Shown: positions 31,502-45,169 of the stretch, piece after piece | How the letters are laid out: each line of letters begins with the position of its first letter | Numbering within the stretch: the first letter of the stretch is position 1 | NCBI RefSeq assembly: GCF_019903425.1 | Contig: NZ_JACHUZ010000013.1 | Span: 252,087-316,086, forward strand | Length of the DNA: 64,000 nt | Source: Vreelandella halophila | GTDB taxonomy: Bacteria > Pseudomonadota > Gammaproteobacteria > Pseudomonadales > Oleiphilaceae | Reading direction: 5' to 3' | Position numbers and translations under genes: made by a program | The notes under the pieces: generated by a model | Database searches by the model: none | What the model was told of the DNA's origin: nothing | What the model saw: only the letters and a program-made list of their open reading frames with translations

Positions 31502-31912
31502 ATGAAAGGCACCTGTCTCTGTGGGGCGATCCAGGTTACGGCGCCCGACCATACCGACATCAGCGTCTGCCACTGCACCATGTGCCGGCGATGGGGCGGA
31601 AGCCCGATGTTTGCCGTGCACTGCGGACCCGGGGTGCAGTTCAGCGGCAGCTCTACCCCTGCCACCTACCGGTCCTCGGAATGGGCGGAACGCGGCTTCT
31701 GCCCCAACTGCGGAACGCATCTGTACTTCCATTACCTCCCGGAGGATGATTATGTACTGGCAGCCGGTCTCTTCCAGGAGTCGGAGACGTTCCGCATCGC
31801 CGGCCAGATCTTCATTGATGAAAAGCCGGACTACTATGCGCTTGCCAATGACACCGAGACCCTGACGGGAGAGCAGGTATTCGCTCAGTTCGCCGGGGAT
31901 TCATCGTCCTGA
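31502..31912 (+). CDS. GFA (glutathione-dependent formaldehyde-activating enzyme/centromere protein V-like) family protein
   Basis: 136 residues with the GFA zinc-binding cysteines: GTCLCGA at the start, CHCTMCRRWGG near residue 30, and FCPNCGTHLYF near 70. The fold binds zinc and in some members glutathione adducts. The real substrate is unknown. AGGGAGG lies a little upstream of the ATG. It is a separate unit, 67 bp after the DUF503 gene. Confidence 0.9.
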   Translation: MKGTCLCGAIQVTAPDHTDISVCHCTMCRRWGGSPMFAVHCGPGVQFSGSSTPATYRSSEWAERGFCPNCGTHLYFHYLPEDDYVLAAGLFQESETFRIAGQIFIDEKPDYYALANDTETLTGEQVFAQFAGDSSS

Positions 31913-31931
31913 TCGGACAGGGAGGCATCCG

Positions 31932-32336
31932 ATGAAACCAAAGATCAGCCTGATCACCCTGGGTGTTGACGACCTCGACAGGGCCACCCGTTTCTACGGC
32001 GAAGGATTGGGCCTGCCGCAGTATGACTTTGAAGGGGAAGGCGTCGCCTTTTTCAGCCTGGAGGGCACCTGGCTGGCGCTGTATCCAAGGGCGGAACTTG
32101 CCCGCGACATCGGGATCACCGTTGCGGAAGGGCCCGCCCATGCCAGCGTGACCCTGGCCCATAACGCCCCCAGCCGCGAAGATGTCGACACGGTCCTTGC
32201 CCAGGCGGTCGCCGCCGGCGCCACCCTCATCAAACCGGCCAAGGAGGTTTTCTGGGGTGGCTATTCCGGTTATTTCCAGGATCCGGAAGGGCATTACTGG
32301 GAGGTCGCCTTCAATCCTTTCATGGACCTGACCTGA
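31932..32336 (+). CDS. VOC family (glyoxalase/dioxygenase-fold) protein
   Basis: 134 residues with two beta-alpha-beta-beta-beta units of the vicinal-oxygen-chelate fold: start ISLITLGVDDLDRATRFYGEGLG and end GYFQDPEGHYWEVAFNP. The Glu in the last strand fits a metal ligand, whereas the N-terminal His of glyoxalase I is not obvious. It is probably a small-molecule binding or isomerising enzyme. It follows the GFA gene by 19 bp. Confidence 0.88.
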   Translation: MKPKISLITLGVDDLDRATRFYGEGLGLPQYDFEGEGVAFFSLEGTWLALYPRAELARDIGITVAEGPAHASVTLAHNAPSREDVDTVLAQAVAAGATLIKPAKEVFWGGYSGYFQDPEGHYWEVAFNPFMDLT

Positions 32337-32351
32337 TCAAGCAGGAGCAGG

Positions 32352-32984
32352 ATGTCGATTCAACCACTCAATCACGCCGGTTTCGACACTGACGATACCC
32401 GGCCAGGAAACGCAAAAGTGCGGGAGGCACTTGCGTTAGCCCTGGGAGGCGATACGGCGTCATCCCTTGTCACCCGACTGGCTGATGCCTTCGTGGAGCG
32501 GCGCTTCAGGAAGGCGGAGGCTGTTCTGTTGGCCGGAGAACAATGGCAGCAGGTACTCTTCATTGAGCAGGGTATGCTGCGTCTGTATTACAGCGACGAA
32601 GAAGGACGAGAATTCAACAAAGGGTTCTTTCAGGAGGGTCAGCTAATCTGGCCTGTAGCGCCCAGCGCCCGCCAGGAACCAAGCCTTTTCAGTATCCTGT
32701 GCCTTGAACACTGCTCAATCCGGGTTGCTGATTTTGACTGGTTCCGGAGGCAGCTTGAGAGTGCCGGACTATGGTCCAGGTTCGCCTTGCCTTTCACGGA
32801 ATGGCTCGCGGAGGAGAAATTCCTGCGTGAATACGAGCTGTTGCTCTATCCAGCCTTGGAGCGTTACCAGCACTTCCAGAACCAGTATCCGGAACTGGCA
32901 GCGCGGGTTCCCGACTATCATCTGGCGTCTTATCTGGGCATGAGCAACGTCACTCTGTCACGGATCAAGCGACACGGTGTTTAG
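32352..32984 (+). CDS. Crp/Fnr-type cyclic-nucleotide-binding-fold regulator
   Basis: 210 residues. A cNMP-binding-like beta roll (about 45-130, with LLAGEQWQQVLFIEQGMLRLYY) is followed by a long helix and a C-terminal helix-turn-helix (YHLASYLGMSNVTLSRIKR). There are no Fnr-type cysteines, and the phosphate-binding cassette of cAMP binders is not clear. The local base composition looks less G+C-rich than the neighbourhood through about 34,100. It may control the SDR and monooxygenase genes that follow. Confidence 0.85.
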   Translation: MSIQPLNHAGFDTDDTRPGNAKVREALALALGGDTASSLVTRLADAFVERRFRKAEAVLLAGEQWQQVLFIEQGMLRLYYSDEEGREFNKGFFQEGQLIWPVAPSARQEPSLFSILCLEHCSIRVADFDWFRRQLESAGLWSRFALPFTEWLAEEKFLREYELLLYPALERYQHFQNQYPELAARVPDYHLASYLGMSNVTLSRIKRHGV

Positions 32985-33055
32985 CCTGTGTTAATGCACC
33001 GGAACCGCGTAGGGCGGAAGATGCAGTTGTTCCATCTGACACGGGAGCAACCGCA

Positions 33056-33799
33056 ATGCATGAAACCAGTGAGCATACCGTACTTGTCACCGGCGGCACC
33101 CAAGGTATTGGATTGGCTATCAGCCAAGCCTTTTCGAAACGGGGTAGCCGGGTCATAACGGTTGGACGTCACCCCACAGAGGATCCAACTCCGACCCATC
33201 ATATTCAAGCAGACCTTACCACCCAGGATGGGTGTCAGGAGGTGACCCGATATTTCCGGGAGGCGGAGGAAGGGTTGGATGTACTGGTCAATAACGCCGG
33301 AGTAGCCCGGTTCACCATGCTGGAAGCAACAGAGGATGGACTGCTTGAGGAACAAATGGCCGTGAACCTGCTTGCTCCCTACCGTATGGTCCGCGACCTC
33401 CTGCCGCAATTGCGGGAGCGCAGAGGCTGCGTAATCAACATATCGTCCTACTTTGCCCGCCGCATGCTGCCTGATCGCCCTTCCTCCGCCTACTCCATGA
33501 CGAAAGGGGGACTGGATGCCCTTACGGGGGCGCTGGCCTTTGAACTGGGTCCCGAAGGGGTACGAGTCAATGGCATTGCGCCAGGCACAGTGGATACGCC
33601 TCTGTTTCGCCAAAACCTCGCTGCATTACCCGAGCAGTCGCGTGAGGCATTCAGACAGGCTGTACCCCGACTGTACCCGCTGGGACGACTTGGGCAACCG
33701 GGAGACGTGGCAGCCCTCGCATGTTTCCTGGCTTCCGCCGAAGCGGGTTGGATGACAGGGGCCGTTGTACCGGTGGATGGCGGACTGACAACTCATTGA
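33056..33799 (+). CDS. Short-chain dehydrogenase/reductase
   Basis: 247 residues, classical SDR: the cofactor motif TGGTQGIG near residue 12, VLVNNAGVA, the catalytic Ser in INISSYF, the YSMTK Tyr-Lys pair, and the usual PG...DT segment. The Arg after the second strand (TVGRHPTE) suggests NADP preference. The substrate is unknown. It is followed after 7 bp by an antibiotic-biosynthesis-monooxygenase-like gene, probably in the same transcript. Confidence 0.92.
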   Translation: MHETSEHTVLVTGGTQGIGLAISQAFSKRGSRVITVGRHPTEDPTPTHHIQADLTTQDGCQEVTRYFREAEEGLDVLVNNAGVARFTMLEATEDGLLEEQMAVNLLAPYRMVRDLLPQLRERRGCVINISSYFARRMLPDRPSSAYSMTKGGLDALTGALAFELGPEGVRVNGIAPGTVDTPLFRQNLAALPEQSREAFRQAVPRLYPLGRLGQPGDVAALACFLASAEAGWMTGAVVPVDGGLTTH

Positions 33800-33806
33800 G
33801 GAAATA

Positions 33807-34103
33807 ATGCGGACAACAGCAGTCATCAAACAGGTGGAACTGGAAGCCGTTGGTGATCCGGCAGCAACAAGGAAAGCACTGGCGGAACTGGTCAGGCATA
33901 CCCGTGCGGAACCGGGCTGCATTCTCTTCGAGATTCACGAACACAGTGATAACAGCAGTCGCTTCAGCCTGTGGGAACACTTTGTCGATCAGGCCGCCTT
34001 TGATGAGCATCTGGCGGAAGCTCATACCCGAGCCTTCTTTGAAAGAGGCTGGACTCGGTTAGTTCAAAGACAGGATCTGCGACTTTTGGAAACAGCCCCC
34101 TGA
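33807..34103 (+). CDS. Antibiotic biosynthesis monooxygenase (ABM/YgiN-like) domain protein
   Basis: 98 residues forming one ABM domain: LVRHTRAEPGCILFEIHEH, then the FSLWEHFVDQAAFDEHLAEAHTRAF pattern with conserved Trp/Glu and His residues. Such proteins are dimeric and include quinol monooxygenases and heme- or quinone-related enzymes. A GAGG site precedes the ATG. Together with the preceding SDR this suggests quinone or aromatic-compound handling. Confidence 0.85.
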   Translation: MRTTAVIKQVELEAVGDPAATRKALAELVRHTRAEPGCILFEIHEHSDNSSRFSLWEHFVDQAAFDEHLAEAHTRAFFERGWTRLVQRQDLRLLETAP

Positions 34104-34175
34104 AACGGTTTAAAACATGTCCGCGCCGGTTATCATCCAACCAGGACCTGATAACCCGCCGGACAAGGAGGCGTC

Positions 34176-34670
34176 ATGCTGACCTACGCACACACCATGG
34201 CCCGCTACAACCGCTGGATGAACCGGCGCCTTTATGACGTCTGCGGACGTCTTTCCGACGAAGCCAGGAAGCAGGACATGGGCGCGTTTTTCCGTTCCAT
34301 CCACGGCACGCTCAATCACCTGCTGCTGACTGATCGGCTCTGGATGGGCCGATTCACCGGGGAAGGGTATACGATCCAGTCCCTCGACCAGGAGCTGTAC
34401 GCCGACTTCGAGACGCTCCGGGCCGAACGTGAGTACGAGGACAACAGGATCCTCGAATGGGTGGCGTCACTGGATCATGAAACGATCGAGGGAGACCTGG
34501 TCTACACCAGTGCCGTCAGCCCCGAGCCCAGGCGCCTCCCGTTCCGGCTGGCCCTGACCCACTTCTTCAACCACCAGACCCATCACCGTGGCCAGCTCAC
34601 CACGCTGATCACCCAGCAAGGGATTGACCCTGGCGTGACGGATCTCATCTGGTTGCCTGAAGAGGCATAA
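34176..34670 (+). CDS. DinB family protein
   Basis: 164 residues of the DinB four-helix fold: MARYNRWMNRRLYD, HGTLNHLLLTDRLW with the first metal His, and HFFNHQTHHRGQLTTLI with the His pair. DinB-fold proteins are metal-dependent thiol transferases or hydrolases, acting with bacillithiol, mycothiol or glutathione; the substrate here is unknown. An AAGGAGG site lies just before the ATG. Confidence 0.9.
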   Translation: MLTYAHTMARYNRWMNRRLYDVCGRLSDEARKQDMGAFFRSIHGTLNHLLLTDRLWMGRFTGEGYTIQSLDQELYADFETLRAEREYEDNRILEWVASLDHETIEGDLVYTSAVSPEPRRLPFRLALTHFFNHQTHHRGQLTTLITQQGIDPGVTDLIWLPEEA

Positions 34671-34916: not shown

Positions 34917-35186
34917 CTAGTCAGTGCTCTCCTCGATACTATCCCCGGCTTCTTCAGCGCTTTCTTCCATCTCGTCGGCAACTTCCCCGGCGGTCTCCTC
35001 AGCCTGCTCCATGGAATCCTCCTGGGTACCGGTCAGATCCTCGGTGGTTTCCTCGGCGCTGTCGGCGGTATCCTCGGCCATTTCTTCCATGTCCTCGCCT
35101 GCTTCCTCCATGGAGGAGTCATCACCGCAGCCTGCAAGGCCCAGAGCTGCAACAAGTGCAAGACCGATTATCCATTCACGTTTCAT
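34917..35186 (-). CDS. Small, very acidic lipoprotein
   Basis: 89 residues. A signal peptide ends in a lipobox (GLAGC, Cys at about residue 20). The mature part is almost entirely Glu, Asp, Ser, Thr and Ala in imperfect short repeats (EEAGEDMEEMAED and similar), probably disordered or one long helix. Gly-Asp-Asp after the Cys suggests the Lol system could treat it as an inner-membrane-retained lipoprotein (Asp at +2 or +3). Function unknown; acidic periplasmic proteins are common in halophiles. Confidence 0.8.
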   Translation of the reverse strand: MKREWIIGLALVAALGLAGCGDDSSMEEAGEDMEEMAEDTADSAEETTEDLTGTQEDSMEQAEETAGEVADEMEESAEEAGDSIEESTD

Positions 35187-35330: not shown

Positions 35331-37556
35331 CTACAGGTCATCGTTCAGCGAGATCATCTGGGTCTTGCTGATGCGGTGCCTGTAGATCTCGCGCAGGTAC
35401 TTGATCGCCTTCTTGATGTTGTCCCGGTTCAGCCGGATGTCATTGATCGAGACGAAGTTGCTCCGGTCATGGCACATCTCCCGGTACTTCTTCTCATACA
35501 TCGGCTTGATGGCGTACCAGTTGGTGTCGAGGATCTTGGCCGGATTCTCAAACTCGTTGAGCATCTCATCCACCAGCTGCTCATCGAACTCATCGTTCTT
35601 GATGAATTGGAGCATGCTGCGATCCAGGGTGTCATCAAAACGGGCACTCTCATTCGCGAAGCAGCGCTTGATGTAGGCCGTAATCAGGGTGAGGAAGTCA
35701 TCACTCAGGCACGGGCTCTTGACCACCAGGGTGGTCAGCGAGAGGTTCGCCGAGGCCCCGATCACCAGGGCGTAGCGCTTCAGAGTGGTGTTCGGGAAGA
35801 GCGCGTTCAGGTGTGTCTTGAGCCGATTCAGGTCCACATAGGAGAGTTTGTAGTCCTTGGGCAGCGACACGATCGAGACAATGGACGAGCAGTTCTGGAA
35901 GAAGTGCAAGTCGCTCAGGGTCTCGGCGTTGTAGCCTGAGTCCCGGAAGCGCTTGAGCCGCTCGCGGTAACGCTCGGACTCGATCGGCAGCAGGCTCACG
36001 CCCTCGATGGCCTGGGTGACCTTGTTGAAGTGCGGCAGGTCGATGGACCGATAGAAGAGGTCATCAATGTCCAGCCGCGACTCCTCATCGAAGCGCCGCC
36101 GGTCTCCCACATCCTGGGGCGTGGTCGGCACCACGGATTCCGCATAGGCCACCGCCACCGGTCCGGCCAGGCTCATGAACAGGTCGTTGGCGTCCAGGCG
36201 AATGGTCTCGCCAATGTCCACACCGGCACGGCGGAAGTAGTCCTCGTCGTAATCGGTGGTCACCGCCTGGGCCGTGAGGATGTTGAAGATCTGCTGGGAG
36301 ATGTACTGGTTGGCGTACTTCTCCATGGCGTTCACATCCACGTACTGGATGTTGCCGTCATCCGTCTGCTCGGCGTAGCGCATGATGTCGTTGGAGATCA
36401 GCATCATGGCGTTCCAGGGCCGGATGCGGTTCATCATGTTCTCGTCGCTGGTCTCCTCCGTGTCGAAGTTGTAGGAGAAGTCCCACTCTTCAGAGAGGTA
36501 CTTGCACAGCAGGCGCCCGGCGTTAATATGCAGCGCCTCGGACATCTCCACTTGGTTGTCTTGGATATTGGGCAGGATACAGATGCCGCTGGTGAAAATG
36601 GGCTCGAAGATGAAGGCATGATCCTGATTCTGGAGGCCAGTGTCCTCCAGCTTGGGGTCAAAGGTCTTGCGCATGTAGGCGTATTGCTGCGCCAGCCCGA
36701 ACTCCGAGGCCATGCCTGAACCAGTGCCGCCACCAGCGGAGAAGATGTAGAAGTAAAGGCGTGACTGGTTCGCCTTGATACCGCAGGAGTCGATCAGGTA
36801 GGAGTGGATGAACTTCCAGTCCTCGTTGCTGAACTGCTGGGTATCCTTGTTGAGGATGATCTTTGCCAGGTACTGGCCGAGGATGGGCGCGTTACCCGCA
36901 CCACCGGCGTGAACCTCGGAAAGGTCCATGATCTTGAGCTTGTTGTAGTCGTCCAGGAGGTAGTTGTCGTCCTCCTTGTTATGGGTCAGCTGGATGCGGC
37001 CCTCGATGTCCTTGTCCAGATCCCCCAGCATCACCATGGGCTCGATCAGGAACACCGGTTTCACCGAATTCGGCGTGGGCAGGTTGAGGCTGTTGCGGAT
37101 CCAGCGCATCGGGCCCACTTCCTTCTCGCGGCTGCGCCGCTCCTCGCTGTTCAGCTCCTGCAGGTAATAGGTCCGGGCACTGTGCACCAGTGCGGCGACA
37201 TCCAGCGCGATATTGGAACCGCACCGGCCCAGCCCAATCAGGCATACGGACGGGAAGACCTGATCATTACGCCCGGTCTTGTCCGGCGCCGCACCGGTAA
37301 TGGTGTTGGGGAACACATTGGCCCGGAGCTCGTCCAGATTCGAAAGAATCTGGTCAAGATCCTTCTCAGTGAAGTACATATAGGGCTCCGGTGACGTGCT
37401 GCTCTGACCACCAGAGCCCGTGCGGCGGCGCGTTCCGCCCGACTTGCCTTTACCGCTGGATTTCGCCTGACTGGCACGGCCACTCTTCTGTTTGGCGGTG
37501 GTCTCTTCGGCCGCCTGCTCCGTCTGCTCTTCCCCGGTCGTATTCGACTCGCTCAT
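35331..37556 (-). CDS. FtsZ/tubulin-superfamily protein (Tubulin_2/FtsZ-like class)
   Basis: 741 residues, about twice the length of FtsZ. Residues 1-58 are low-complexity, basic and Ser/Gly/Lys-rich. A Rossmann-like start SVCLIGLGRCGSN (103-115) and the tubulin signature SAGGGTGSG (273-281) define a nucleotide-binding core. A later RLDAND segment lines up with the FtsZ T7 loop NxDxxD, keeping both Asp residues though the Asn is Arg, so GTP hydrolysis across a polymer interface is possible. A further 250 residues follow with no recognised domain. There is no signal or membrane segment. It stands alone, divergent from a PLP decarboxylase gene. It is clearly not the cell-division FtsZ, and its role is unknown. 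Confidence 0.8.
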   Translation of the reverse strand: MSESNTTGEEQTEQAAEETTAKQKSGRASQAKSSGKGKSGGTRRRTGSGGQSSTSPEPYMYFTEKDLDQILSNLDELRANVFPNTITGAAPDKTGRNDQVFPSVCLIGLGRCGSNIALDVAALVHSARTYYLQELNSEERRSREKEVGPMRWIRNSLNLPTPNSVKPVFLIEPMVMLGDLDKDIEGRIQLTHNKEDDNYLLDDYNKLKIMDLSEVHAGGAGNAPILGQYLAKIILNKDTQQFSNEDWKFIHSYLIDSCGIKANQSRLYFYIFSAGGGTGSGMASEFGLAQQYAYMRKTFDPKLEDTGLQNQDHAFIFEPIFTSGICILPNIQDNQVEMSEALHINAGRLLCKYLSEEWDFSYNFDTEETSDENMMNRIRPWNAMMLISNDIMRYAEQTDDGNIQYVDVNAMEKYANQYISQQIFNILTAQAVTTDYDEDYFRRAGVDIGETIRLDANDLFMSLAGPVAVAYAESVVPTTPQDVGDRRRFDEESRLDIDDLFYRSIDLPHFNKVTQAIEGVSLLPIESERYRERLKRFRDSGYNAETLSDLHFFQNCSSIVSIVSLPKDYKLSYVDLNRLKTHLNALFPNTTLKRYALVIGASANLSLTTLVVKSPCLSDDFLTLITAYIKRCFANESARFDDTLDRSMLQFIKNDEFDEQLVDEMLNEFENPAKILDTNWYAIKPMYEKKYREMCHDRSNFVSINDIRLNRDNIKKAIKYLREIYRHRISKTQMISLNDDL

Positions 37557-37790
37557 GACCTGATACCCGTCTCTGTGCCGCGCTGAATAGATGGTACATT
37601 ACTGGATTTTCACCCTCTATCAAGATAGCTTCCCCCACGCATTTCGCAATCCTCCGGTTGCAATTCGACACATACCAGCACGCAGCACCAGAAGCGGCGG
37701 ATGCTGGTCTGGCGTAAGCTCAGTCCTTATACTTTCTGGTTTGGGCACCTGACGATGAACGCCCTGCAACTCACCGGAGCCCGAGCAGTC

Positions 37791-39461
37791 ATGAGCGGCC
37801 AGAGAAAAACCGCACAAGCCAGTCTGGAGGCGATGTACCGGATCTTCACGATCCCAGAGGCCCCGGATTCGACGCTCAGCCGTTTGGATCAGGACATATC
37901 CCGGAACCTGACTGGCTTCCTGCAGGACCACATCGTGGCCCTGGAGCGCGAGATGGGCGAGATGGAGAAAGACTTTCAAGAGCCTCGCGTTCCGGAAAAG
38001 CCCATCTTCGTTTCCGAGCAGGCCCAGTTTCTTCTGGACAAGCTGGTCTCCCAATCCGTCCACACGGCCTCACCCAGTTTTGTGGGGCACATGACCTCGG
38101 CCCTGCCGTACTTCATGCTGCCGCTTTCCAAGATCATGATCGCCCTGAACCAGAACCTGGTTAAGACCGAGACTTCCAAGGCCTTCACCCCGCTGGAGCG
38201 CCAGGTACTGGGCATGCTTCACCATCTGGTCTACGGCTGTGAGGACGCCTGGTACCGGCAATGGATGCATGACCCGCATCACGCGCTCGGGGCCATGTGC
38301 TCCGGGGGTACCATCGCCAACCTCACGGCACTGTGGGTAGCCCGTAACCATGCCTTCCCCCCTGAGGGCGGATTCAGGGGGGTACACCGTGAAGGACTCT
38401 TCCGCGCGCTGCGTTTCTACGGTCATGAAGGGGCCGCGGTACTGGTATCCGAACGGGGCCACTACTCGCTCACCAAGGCGGCTGATGTTCTCGGGATTGG
38501 GCGTGACAGCCTGATCCCCATTGCCACGGATGCCGACAACCGCATCGACCCGGACGCCCTGCGTGACCGCTGCCTGGAGCTCCAGCGCCAGAAGATCAAG
38601 GTTCTGTCGATTGTGGGTATTGCCGGCACCACGGAAACAGGGCATGTGGACCCACTGGAGACCCTGGCGGATATCGCGCAGGAATTCCGCGCCCACTTCC
38701 ATGTGGATGCGGCCTGGGGTGGACCCACCCTGTTCTCCCGCCAGCACCGGTACCGGCTCAATGGCGTCGAGAAGGCGGACTCGGTCACCATTGATGCCCA
38801 CAAGCAGCTCTACACGCCCCAGGGCGCGGGCATGGTGCTGTTCCGGAATCCGGCCTCGGTAAGCGTGATCGAACACCACGCGCAGTACATCATCCGCAAG
38901 GGGTCCAAGGATCTGGGCAGCACCACGCTGGAAGGCTCACGCCCCGGCATGGCCATGCTGATCCACTCCGGGCTGCGCATTATCGGGCGGGAAGGGTACG
39001 AGATCCTGATCGATCAGGGTATTGAGAAGGCCCAGTCCTTTGCGGCCATGATCCGCGGGCACGATGACTTCGAGCTGATCACCGAGCCCGAGCTCAACAT
39101 CCTGACCTACCGCTACTCACCAGCCCGGGCCCAGGAGGCCCTGGCGCAGGCGGACGAAGTGGCGGCTGAACGCATCAACGCCAGCCTCAACCGCATCACC
39201 CGGTTCATCCAGAAAACGCAGCGGGAGCGCGGCAAGTCCTTTGTTTCACGGACACAGCTGGAACCGGCCCAGCACAACCACTACCCCTGCGTGGTATTCC
39301 GGGTCGTTCTGGCCAACCCGCTGACCACCCACGAGATTCTCAGTGACATACTGGAAGAGCAGTCGGGCATCGCGCGCGAAGAGCGTATTGCGGGAGAGCG
39401 CCGGGCCCTGGAGTCGGCCGTCGCGTCAGTGCTGGAAGGGACGGAAAAGGCGGCTCAGTAG
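37791..39461 (+). CDS. panP: PLP-dependent decarboxylase, PanP-type aspartate 1-decarboxylase
   Basis: 556 residues from ATG 37791; earlier in-frame ATGs at 37701 and 37755 are possible, as no start has a perfect ribosome site. It is a group II PLP decarboxylase: CSGGTIANLTAL, the pyridine-stacking His region, VDAAWGGP and the PLP lysine in IDAHKQLYTPQGAG. The N-terminus TAQASLEAMYRIFTIPEAPDSTL matches the PanP family, which makes beta-alanine from aspartate for pantothenate in bacteria lacking PanD. A glutamate or cysteine-sulfinate substrate cannot be excluded. Confidence 0.8.
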   Translation: MSGQRKTAQASLEAMYRIFTIPEAPDSTLSRLDQDISRNLTGFLQDHIVALEREMGEMEKDFQEPRVPEKPIFVSEQAQFLLDKLVSQSVHTASPSFVGHMTSALPYFMLPLSKIMIALNQNLVKTETSKAFTPLERQVLGMLHHLVYGCEDAWYRQWMHDPHHALGAMCSGGTIANLTALWVARNHAFPPEGGFRGVHREGLFRALRFYGHEGAAVLVSERGHYSLTKAADVLGIGRDSLIPIATDADNRIDPDALRDRCLELQRQKIKVLSIVGIAGTTETGHVDPLETLADIAQEFRAHFHVDAAWGGPTLFSRQHRYRLNGVEKADSVTIDAHKQLYTPQGAGMVLFRNPASVSVIEHHAQYIIRKGSKDLGSTTLEGSRPGMAMLIHSGLRIIGREGYEILIDQGIEKAQSFAAMIRGHDDFELITEPELNILTYRYSPARAQEALAQADEVAAERINASLNRITRFIQKTQRERGKSFVSRTQLEPAQHNHYPCVVFRVVLANPLTTHEILSDILEEQSGIAREERIAGERRALESAVASVLEGTEKAAQ

Positions 39462-42988: not shown

Positions 42989-43558
42989 TCAGGCCAGTTC
43001 CGGCTTGCGCCCGGGGCGCACAACACCGCAGGCCACCAGCAGGCTGAGCCCTCCCGCCATCAGGAAGAGCGCGGATGTCTCCGGAACCTGGGAAACCGAC
43101 ATCTCGTAGCTGAAGCTGCCGCCGGTCTGGAACCCGTCACCAACACCGCCCAGTGCCAGGGTATAGACCGCCCCATCGGCCAGGTCTGTTTTCAGGAACT
43201 CAAAGGGCCCGTAGAACGGGTTATTCCCGTCCACATAGGCGAGGTCAGCGAAATCCCCGTTGTTACTGAACGCCAGCGCATCGCTGAATGACGCCACCTC
43301 GCCCCGATAGAGGCTGACCCCCATGGTGGTGTCGCCGGAGACACTGACACTCAACGTCTCACCGGGGCTCCCGGTCAGCGTCCAGAAATCCACGCCGTTG
43401 CCGGTGGCGGACTCGGTCAGCCAGGCGTCGTTGGCGTCGACATCCCCGGAAAAGGTGCCGCCACCGGTAACATCGCCGGTGACCGGCATGGCATGAACGG
43501 ATGCCGACACCGCCAGGGTGGCCAGCAGTGCGGTGAAAAAGAAGCGCTTGAACCTCAT
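42989..43558 (-). CDS. PEP-CTERM-like exported protein
   Basis: 189 residues from ATG 43558, which gives a standard signal peptide (MRFKRFFFTALLATLAVSASV, Ala-rich cleavage near residue 22). The middle is Gly/Ser/Asp-rich and beta-like, resembling pre-peptidase or bacterial cell-wall type domains. The C-terminus has VPETSALFLMAG, a hydrophobic stretch and basic residues (RPGRK), the exosortase sorting pattern with VPET for VPEP. Such proteins are tied to exopolysaccharide or surface assembly. It lies between tatA and the PhoX-like gene. Confidence 0.72.
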   Translation of the reverse strand: MRFKRFFFTALLATLAVSASVHAMPVTGDVTGGGTFSGDVDANDAWLTESATGNGVDFWTLTGSPGETLSVSVSGDTTMGVSLYRGEVASFSDALAFSNNGDFADLAYVDGNNPFYGPFEFLKTDLADGAVYTLALGGVGDGFQTGGSFSYEMSVSQVPETSALFLMAGGLSLLVACGVVRPGRKPELA

Positions 43559-43605
43559 GGCTGTTCCTCCTTGCTTTCCATTGCGTGATGTTGAATAACG
43601 GCGCC

Positions 43606-45000
43606 TCAGAGGCTGCCCTTTTCCCAGGGACCGGTGATGGCAAAGGTCACCCCCGGGTCCTGGATGTTCACGAACAGCCAGCGATTGTAGAAGGTCGCTC
43701 CAGCCCACTCGCGGCCCCGATAGTCACCCGCACCGATGTGGTTGGCGGCCCCTGGAAAATGGGAATCGATGGTGGCGACATCGCCGTTGTTCAGACTGAT
43801 GCGATTGCGCGCGAAGGGGAAAACAGTGGCGTCCCGGTTCACCGCGATCAGCCGCTGCTGGGCCTGACCGCCATCCTCGCAGACAAGCAGACCACCACGC
43901 GGACTCACGGCGATGTTGTCCGGGCTGTCCAGATCCGAGGCGCTGCGGCTCTCATAGATCATGGTCAGTTTCTGGCGGCGGGGGTCGTATTCATAGAGCT
44001 GACCGGTACGGTTGCTGCCCCCATCGGTAGCGCTGAAGAAAATCCGGCCTGAATCCTCCCAGCAACCTTCCAGACGGGTGAAGGTCGCGGCTCCCGGGGC
44101 CGACTCGAGCGCGCTGCCCTCTTCAGCCATGGGGTCGTTGACCGGCACCCATTCCACGTCCCAACTGGTGCCGTCAGCGAAGCTCGGGAACCGACCATTG
44201 TCACCGAACACAAAACCCGGCTGATCCTTCACCGCCAGGGCTTCCAGGGTACCGCCGGAGTGCAGGTCACCCCACTTGCCCTCGGGGCGGAACCGGTAGA
44301 ACCCGGCCGGACGCGCATCCTCGGTCTCGTACATGATGCCGGTGGCAGGGTCGATGGCAACCGCCTCGTGGCTGAAGCGGCCCGCGGCCCGGATGGGCCT
44401 GGCATCGCTCACACCAAAGCCGGGCACCTCGAACACCCAGCCGTGCCCCTCCGCGGTTGTCTCCTCGCAGGAGATCCAGGTGCCCCAAGGCGTGCGACCA
44501 CCAGCGCAATTACGGATGGTGCCTCCGAGTGAGGACCAGGAAGCCACGAACTTGCGATTCACCGTATCGAAGATCAGGTTGCTGGTGCCGCCGGCCTCGT
44601 TATCGTCGAACCAGTTCGGTGCCATCACGGCCGGGCGGTCACCAGCTGAGTTCTCGTGGTTGCGGACAATTGCAATCTCGTTGCCACGTGCCGCGACCAC
44701 ACTCATGCCATCGTGAGCACCCGAGGTGGGTGTATCGTCGGACATGACCTGCCCGTGCCAGCCATAAGTGATGTATTCAAAGCCTTCCGGCAGTTCCAGA
44801 AGCTCGAGACCGGTCACTTTGTCGGCCACCGGCTGCAGGGGGCCGTAGTCGCTGCTGAAGGTCTCGGCGGCCGCCACGGATTGGCCGCCAAGGGCAGCGA
44901 ACGCAGCCGTGGCCGCTGTACCACTCTTGACGAAGTCACGCCGCGTAACGGCGATCTCTTGTGAGACATGGTCGATCAGTTGATGGAAATCCTTGTACAT
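43606..45000 (-). CDS. PhoX-family Tat-exported phosphatase-like protein
   Basis: 464 residues from ATG 45000, with a GGGAGGG ribosome site; a longer frame upstream has no such site. The N-terminus has the Tat motif TRRDFVKSG and a hydrophobic stretch ending in AAAETF. The body is a beta-propeller of the DUF839/PhoX class: HDGMSVV, IVRNHENS, SWSSLGGTIRNCAGGRTPWGTWISCEET, GRFSHEAVAIDPATG, DSPDNIAVSPRGGLLVCED. PhoX enzymes are Ca/Fe-dependent periplasmic alkaline phosphatases. It lies next to tatABC, which would export it. No PHO box was found upstream. Confidence 0.85.
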   Translation of the reverse strand: MYKDFHQLIDHVSQEIAVTRRDFVKSGTAATAAFAALGGQSVAAAETFSSDYGPLQPVADKVTGLELLELPEGFEYITYGWHGQVMSDDTPTSGAHDGMSVVAARGNEIAIVRNHENSAGDRPAVMAPNWFDDNEAGGTSNLIFDTVNRKFVASWSSLGGTIRNCAGGRTPWGTWISCEETTAEGHGWVFEVPGFGVSDARPIRAAGRFSHEAVAIDPATGIMYETEDARPAGFYRFRPEGKWGDLHSGGTLEALAVKDQPGFVFGDNGRFPSFADGTSWDVEWVPVNDPMAEEGSALESAPGAATFTRLEGCWEDSGRIFFSATDGGSNRTGQLYEYDPRRQKLTMIYESRSASDLDSPDNIAVSPRGGLLVCEDGGQAQQRLIAVNRDATVFPFARNRISLNNGDVATIDSHFPGAANHIGAGDYRGREWAGATFYNRWLFVNIQDPGVTFAITGPWEKGSL

Positions 45001-45169
45001 GATGCCCTCCCGGGGTTCAGGAAATAGGGATGGGCGATACTGCGTGATTCGCTCCTTGAGCACGCTCCGGCGGGATCGCCGGGAGGTGCAGGGCAGATAC
45101 TGGGGCTGGAAGGTTAAAAGCCGCTGACAGGACGGTGATGTTTTGACAACAGTTTTTTGAAAGGCGGGT

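Follow-up and report, generated by a model that had tools for sequence, protein, structure and literature searches.

The family FtsZl2 was named by Makarova and Koonin in 2010, with PFL_1302 of Pseudomonas fluorescens Pf-5 as type member (PMC2875224). In the part of that paper that deals with the family, FtsZl2 is proteobacterial and keeps all nucleotide-binding motifs, with inserts between T1 and T4; the features listed are the signature GGGTG(S/T)G, the loops T1, T4, T6 and T7 and helix H7. The C-terminus is described there as about 300 residues of mixed alpha/beta structure with no coiled coil, its kind being left unspecified; no gene association is given, FtsZl2 coexists with FtsZ and filament formation was predicted (PMC2875224). 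The paper places FtsZl1 together with genes encoding vWA, kinase, GTPase and OmpA proteins (PMC2875224). TubZ, PhuZ and RepX are plasmid- or phage-borne. In later work, FtsZ-like proteins of the Tubulin_2 type were set aside as divergent (PMC9871819). A full-text search of the open-access literature for "FtsZl2" gave, beyond PMC2875224, only PMC7327170, in whose matching text the string denotes the mutant FtsZ L272E, and no functional study of FtsZl2 was recognised in this literature, judged on titles and the starts of abstracts. An earlier note on the present DNA had called the encoded protein uncharacterised, which holds for its function within the open-access literature searched.

The gene in the window and the conservation of its product

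The window is a stretch of 64,000 nucleotides. According to the list of open reading frames, it contains a single intact frame of 741 codons at 35331-37556 on the minus strand, starting with ATG at 37556; in the frame first given for it, the plus strand of the same interval contains four stops. The 741-residue ORF of the earlier note is real and its strand is minus. The gene, its parts and its two direct neighbours are as follows.

34917..35186, minus: small, very acidic predicted lipoprotein of 89 residues; neighbour, not part of the feature; lies beside the decarboxylase gene in genome G003
35331..37556, minus: putative FtsZl2-type tubulin-superfamily gene, 741 residues (ORF list, profile matches, motifs)
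37377..37556, minus: N-terminal tail, residues 1-60, variable and weakly selected (column identity, dN/dS)
37311..37376, minus: N-terminal segment YFTEKDLDQILSNLDELRANVF, residues 61-82, fairly well conserved; low-confidence models show it as helix-like (mean column identity 0.75 for residues 61-80)
37212..37235, minus: T1 motif GLGRCGSN, residues 108-115 (89/89; in register with FtsZ GVGGGGGN)
36885..36905, minus: T3-like motif GGAGNAP, residues 218-224 (89/89; in register with FtsZ GAGANP)
36714..36734, minus: T4 tubulin signature GGGTGSG, residues 275-281 (89/89; in register with FtsZ)
36276..36317, minus: H7-like segment YANQYISQQIFNIL, residues 414-427 (pattern AN.YISQQIFN in 89/89; H7 assigned by eye)
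36183..36200, minus: T7-like motif RLDAND, residues 453-458, with Asp 455 and Asp 458 (LDANDL in 89/89; partial MAFFT register)
35706..35888, minus: possible FtsZ_C-like strand-helix-strand, about residues 557-617 (some MAFFT modes; a lead only)
35334..35705, minus: conserved C-terminal extension, residues 618-741; near 707-728 a basic, amphipathic, helix-like stretch (conservation, dN/dS, helical moment)
37701..39461, plus: pyridoxal-dependent decarboxylase (PF00282, Pfam); divergent neighbour, not part of the feature

The window genome (3.5 Mb in 13 contigs, 99% complete) carries the FtsZl2-type gene in a single copy on a contig of 2.68 Mb, and a separate canonical ftsZ is located on contig 11. 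The latter scores 163.7 bits against PF00091, the window protein 12 bits against a cut-off of 33. Identity with the division FtsZ was thus rejected, in agreement with the earlier note.

To describe the family we used 89 distinct proteins out of 97, the window protein included; the least similar of them is 54-57% identical to the window protein. The motifs GLGRCGSN, GGGTGSG and RLDAND read in the earlier note are present at residues 108-115, 275-281 and 453-458, and the T1, T3, T4, H7-like and T7 motifs were each found in all 89 proteins, the T4 count being partly by construction since the family frame at each locus was picked by this motif; it was missing from none of the 91 loci examined. Because T1, T3, T4 and T7 are each kept in 89/89 family proteins, they are not chance occurrences. 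In a 37-row alignment, mean column identity amounted to 0.16-0.23 per 20-residue block over residues 1-60, 0.75 for residues 61-80 and 0.42 for 81-100. Over residues 101-640 the blocks reached 0.81-1.00, except for 121-160, 181-200, 301-320, 361-380, 481-500 and 521-540 with 0.52-0.79, and over residues 641-740 they were at 0.69-0.90. In the two closest pairs dN/dS was 0.23-0.24 for residues 1-57, 0.010-0.015 for 58-617 and 0.024-0.051 for 618-741; in three more distant pairs it was 0.10-0.14 for 58-617 and 0.09-0.20 for 618-741, and their tails were saturated or nearly so. Purifying selection is strong on the core and on the C-terminal extension and far weaker on the N-terminal tail.

The earlier note had further described a basic, disordered N-terminal tail and proposed a link to membrane or DNA through the tails. 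The tail does have a net charge of +2 over 60 residues in the window protein, but in the family tails are neither basic nor conserved: across the 89 proteins their length ranges from 9 to 103 residues, where some long tails may reflect a wrong choice of start, and their net charge from -9 to +5. With this variation and the lowest conservation in the whole protein, a basic N-terminal tail as DNA or membrane anchor is not supported and was rejected. The note's "about 250 extra C-terminal residues" is a loose figure, since 283 residues follow T7 and this region of FtsZ likewise holds a C-terminal domain. In the family proteins the final 45 residues were scanned for the FtsZ C-terminal tail peptide with a pattern that we assume to represent it; it was found in 0/89. 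Within the window protein the helical moment peaks near residues 707-728 (0.69, compared with the rest of this protein alone). The conserved C-terminal part is a candidate for contact with a partner or the membrane.

Evidence for a tubulin fold

All Pfam matches of the window protein were below threshold: Tubulin_2 (PF13809) gave 16.9 bits (cut-off 27), Tubulin (PF00091) the 12 bits mentioned above and DUF6562 17.2 bits (cut-off 25). When 37 members were scanned singly, PF00091 was matched at E<=0.1 by 34/37 (best 2.7e-4) and PF13809 by 32/37 (best 7.5e-4); DUF6562 was matched by 17/37 (best 0.003). NCBIfam and PHROGs gave no credible match for the window protein, PADLOC gave none, and a single-sequence and a profile search against solved structures each returned one match at chance level.

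Next to these single scans, alignments were compared with a profile of 31 FtsZ proteins by hhalign. The whole family alignment gave P 0.0088 over 50 columns around T3-T4, and residues 99-400 scored 28.9 (P 0.005, 19 columns), the top of 20 column shuffles being 23.1. The hhalign probabilities of this match were low (4.6-7.1%, aligning 19-50 columns around T3-T4), and residues 400-480, 500-741, 540-620 and 615-741 did not exceed their own shuffles against the same profile. In all MAFFT settings tried, T1, T3 and T4 fell in register when the window protein was aligned with FtsZ from its own genome. T7 was aligned with FtsZ VDFADV in 6/6 settings when the stretch ended shortly after T7; the longer MAFFT alignments did not recover this register, and H7-T7 found no profile support. 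A match of the H7-like segment with H7 was recovered neither by MAFFT nor by profile comparison. Residues 557-617 fell on the C-terminal strands of FtsZ in 3/4 modes of one MAFFT comparison, two of which gave an identical alignment; the settings of two further MAFFT comparisons did not reproduce it, and in hhalign the segment was not above shuffles. Cutting FtsZ into pieces made the MAFFT alignment worse. In sum, the statistics lend weak support to the T3-T4 part, and the assignment of T1 and T7 would follow from motifs and register.

Since the family is too uniform (Neff 1.7), its alignment is not deep. AlphaFold2 with 37 family members gave a mean pLDDT of 42.9, and a model of residues 59-741 from 36 relatives and 25 FtsZ N-domain rows, which would bias it towards FtsZ, gave 47.5. 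Both models were uninformative. With the motifs kept in 89/89 proteins and the weak but recurrent PF00091 and PF13809 matches, the window protein is likely a member of the tubulin superfamily, as had been proposed.

Distribution and genomic surroundings

A scan of the species-genome collection with a six-member alignment, which is confined to members with one of two short peptides preserved, gave 511 pattern stretches, 484 of which encode a relative. The best 80 of the 484 loci are all gammaproteobacterial and belong to Pseudomonas, Rheinheimera, Arsukibacterium, Alkalimonas, Alishewanella, Marinobacter, Thioalkalivibrio, Cellvibrio, Paraglaciecola and Marinifaba, among other genera; the nearest kin among these 80 are proteins of Halovibrio salipaludis and of a strain labelled Vreelandella utahensis, with 97% identity. 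Sampled searches draw genomes evenly, so that carrier counts are samples, and they include the own genome where it was drawn. In these samples the gene was carried by 5/58 relatives, 2/369 genomes in the class, 6/349 in the phylum and 9/163 of the window's family, as well as by 2/6 in the family of genome G049. The highest share was seen in the genus of genome G536 (g308), with 194 carriers among 298 genomes and 104 genomes without the gene. We equate g308 with Pseudomonas on two grounds: its member G663 encodes a protein (L087) identical to the one from Pseudomonas sp. HMWF032 (L056), and two more members stand among Pseudomonas in the tree; another genus of the same family, g309, had no relative in the three genomes listed. 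A PF00091 protein over the cut-off, i.e. canonical FtsZ, was also present in all 12 carriers checked. One carrier has a third tubulin-superfamily match besides FtsZ and the FtsZl2 gene (G753:C166:6891-7397, 54 bits to PF00091, 403-codon frame), and in another genome of the same phylum a second match to PF00091, a short one, barely exceeds the cut-off (G428:C13:2257-2679, 33.1 bits, 194-codon frame).

Neither 72,556 plasmid records nor 50,697 phage records contained a match, and of 120 stretches in viral contigs that matched the pattern none encodes a relative; carriage by plasmids or phages was therefore rejected for the collections searched. A quick tree groups Thioalkalivibrio next to Marinobacter (support 87) and has Cellvibrio and Paraglaciecola nested within the Rheinheimera-type group, the long branches L005, L006, L060 and L091 being possibly misplaced. 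Since Thioalkalivibrio, Cellvibrio and Paraglaciecola are thus placed among other groups, the tree suggests gene transfer between families.

Comparison of close relatives revealed presence and absence at the same site. Genome G002 aligns with the window across the tubulin gene. G003 (same genus, 99% complete) has no tubulin relative, and the lipoprotein and decarboxylase frames adjoin at a distance of about 260 bases. The same locus (L101) also lacks the block 31502-34670 beyond the lipoprotein gene, so that it differs from the window in two respects. This block comprises about six genes on the plus strand, including SDR and DinB genes (Pfam) and glyoxalase-like, Crp-like and other genes assigned by eye. 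The 89-residue lipoprotein (34917-35186) matched no Pfam family; a weak match to a ZorA model (E 0.0037) is probably compositional. Farther away, at 42989-45063 on the minus strand, a protein whose end resembles a C-terminal sorting signal follows just after a 485-residue protein; we take the signal to be of PEP-CTERM type and the 485-residue protein to be PhoX-type phosphatase-like.

Over 82 loci, neighbours change by genus and the commonest flanking families each occur at 24; these counts are approximate, since gene calls are longest frames and some were lost to shadow frames (the family gene itself was clustered in 74/82). The Rheinheimera group has ETF-ubiquinone oxidoreductase (ETF-QO), aldo-keto reductase, pseudouridine synthase and sodium symporter genes as neighbours, Pseudomonas has MFS transporter, hydroxyisobutyrate-dehydrogenase-like, xylose-isomerase-like and DUF2288 genes, and a PhyH protein and an AstE-like protein are encoded nearby in Marinobacter and Thioalkalivibrio, respectively. 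ETF-QO lies directly upstream on the same strand, at a distance of 119-253 bases, in 24/82 loci (L017-L038, L040 and L046); it is fixed in the group of Rheinheimera, Arsukibacterium and Alkalimonas and was not seen there in the remaining loci. This fixed neighbour may reflect shared ancestry or a functional link. The ten flanking families that were identified include no division gene. Comparison of the upstream regions by eye, without statistics, revealed no motif common across genera, and scanning for promoters and terminators yielded no signal stronger than in shuffles. The gene is a stand-alone chromosomal gene that is useful yet dispensable at the species level.

Proposed function and comparison with known systems

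We consider it probable that the window protein is an FtsZl2 member, that it forms filaments driven by GTP and distinct from the Z ring, and that its conserved C-terminal extension binds a partner. The FtsZl2-type protein would bind GTP and stack head to tail, each subunit completing the GTPase site of its neighbour with its T7 aspartates; in FtsZ and tubulin the acidic residues of T7 act only once two subunits have stacked. The filament so formed would be dynamic and would operate alongside the Z ring, not as part of it. Since no FtsZ-type C-terminal tail peptide was found, tethering by FtsA or ZipA is not expected, and the C-terminal extension, which has no counterpart in FtsZ, would be the likeliest part to bind a partner or the membrane.

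Other readings of the same data have to be weighed against such a filament. The protein could, as a diverged relative of FtsZ, act on the Z ring itself and, in certain conditions, cap canonical FtsZ, assemble together with it or restrain it. The presence of canonical FtsZ in 12/12 carriers and the nucleotide-binding half with its FtsZ motifs in register are in line with this idea, but the large T1-T4 insertions and the long C-terminal extension would alter the filament surface, an FtsZ-type tail peptide was found in 0/89 proteins, 104 of the 298 Pseudomonas-group genomes do without the gene and the ten identified flanking families include no division gene; we regard an action on the Z ring as unlikely. 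A nucleotide-binding scaffold or switch that uses the tubulin fold without polymerising would agree with the strong constraint over nearly the whole length of the sequence and with the assignment of T7 and H7 at motif level only, and a lone conserved gene may also code for a scaffold or an enzyme. Against it stand the two acidic residues of T7, both kept in 89/89, which say little alone in so conserved a family, and we judge a scaffold or switch to be decidedly improbable.

The patchy presence of the gene and its suggested transfer between families could also be explained if the protein formed a TubZ/PhuZ-type filament related to DNA or phages, or were an anti-phage component; the neighbouring decarboxylase cross-matches SspA (E 5.6e-7) and DndA (E 1e-5) of PADLOC, which we take as fold-level similarity. 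The plasmid and phage records and the viral contigs, with nothing found in 72,556, 50,697 and all matching stretches, respectively, as well as the missing PADLOC match of the tubulin-type protein argue against this explanation, which appears very improbable indeed.

If the FtsZl2-type protein does form its own filament, it could tentatively be seen, though with some doubt, as a second, division-independent tubulin cytoskeleton made from one lone gene product, with a conserved C-terminal adaptor replacing the FtsZ tail, in about two thirds of the species of the large Pseudomonas group and in scattered other gammaproteobacteria. With 194/298 carriers in this genetically easy genus, a second bacterial tubulin becomes directly testable, and the lone gene, the strong conservation of core and C-terminus and the presence or absence between close relatives narrow the possible roles. 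FtsZl2 has had its name since 2010; data on distribution, selection and neighbourhood are added here.

With TubZ, PhuZ and RepX the protein shares the status of a divergent bacterial tubulin relative but, unlike these plasmid- or phage-borne proteins, its family had no match in the plasmid, phage and viral-contig collections searched. With FtsZl1 (Tubulin_2, PF13809) it shares the superfamily and the weak matches in 32/37 family members, but its 16.9 bits are below the PF13809 cut-off of 27, and vWA, kinase, GTPase or OmpA genes were not seen among the Pfam-identified neighbours in the window and the ten identified flanking families; membership in FtsZl1 was therefore rejected. Among 249 genomes from the phylum, PF13809 exceeded its cut-off twice, the frames concerned being 1111 and 1540 codons long, and genome G000 had no PF13809 match at E<=0.001. 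Canonical FtsZ has T1, T3 and T4 in register with the window protein but is about 400 residues long, compared to 741, and, unlike FtsZ, the window protein has no C-terminal tail peptide that could be found and no division-gene neighbours in the window.

The closest likeness is to FtsZl2. The distance from the start of T1 to the start of T4 is 167 residues in the window protein versus 88 in FtsZ of the same genome, and the 283 residues after T7 contain helices and strands in the low-confidence model. Of the loops listed for FtsZl2, T6 was not identified in the window protein. The family also includes a protein of P. brassicacearum (L077), which we assign, as an assumption of ours, to the P. fluorescens group, and this protein is 71% identical to the window protein. 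PFL_1302 itself was compared by description only, and the window protein fits the FtsZl2 description, from which no difference was found in the part of the paper that deals with the family; it is almost certainly a member of FtsZl2. A new family was therefore rejected, and the "new" filament of the earlier note gives way to one that had been named and predicted to form filaments in 2010 (PMC2875224). The features in common are the tubulin signature, the T1, T4, T7 and H7-like motifs, the inserts between T1 and T4, the long C-terminal region, a lone gene with FtsZ alongside and proteobacterial carriers that include the P. fluorescens group.
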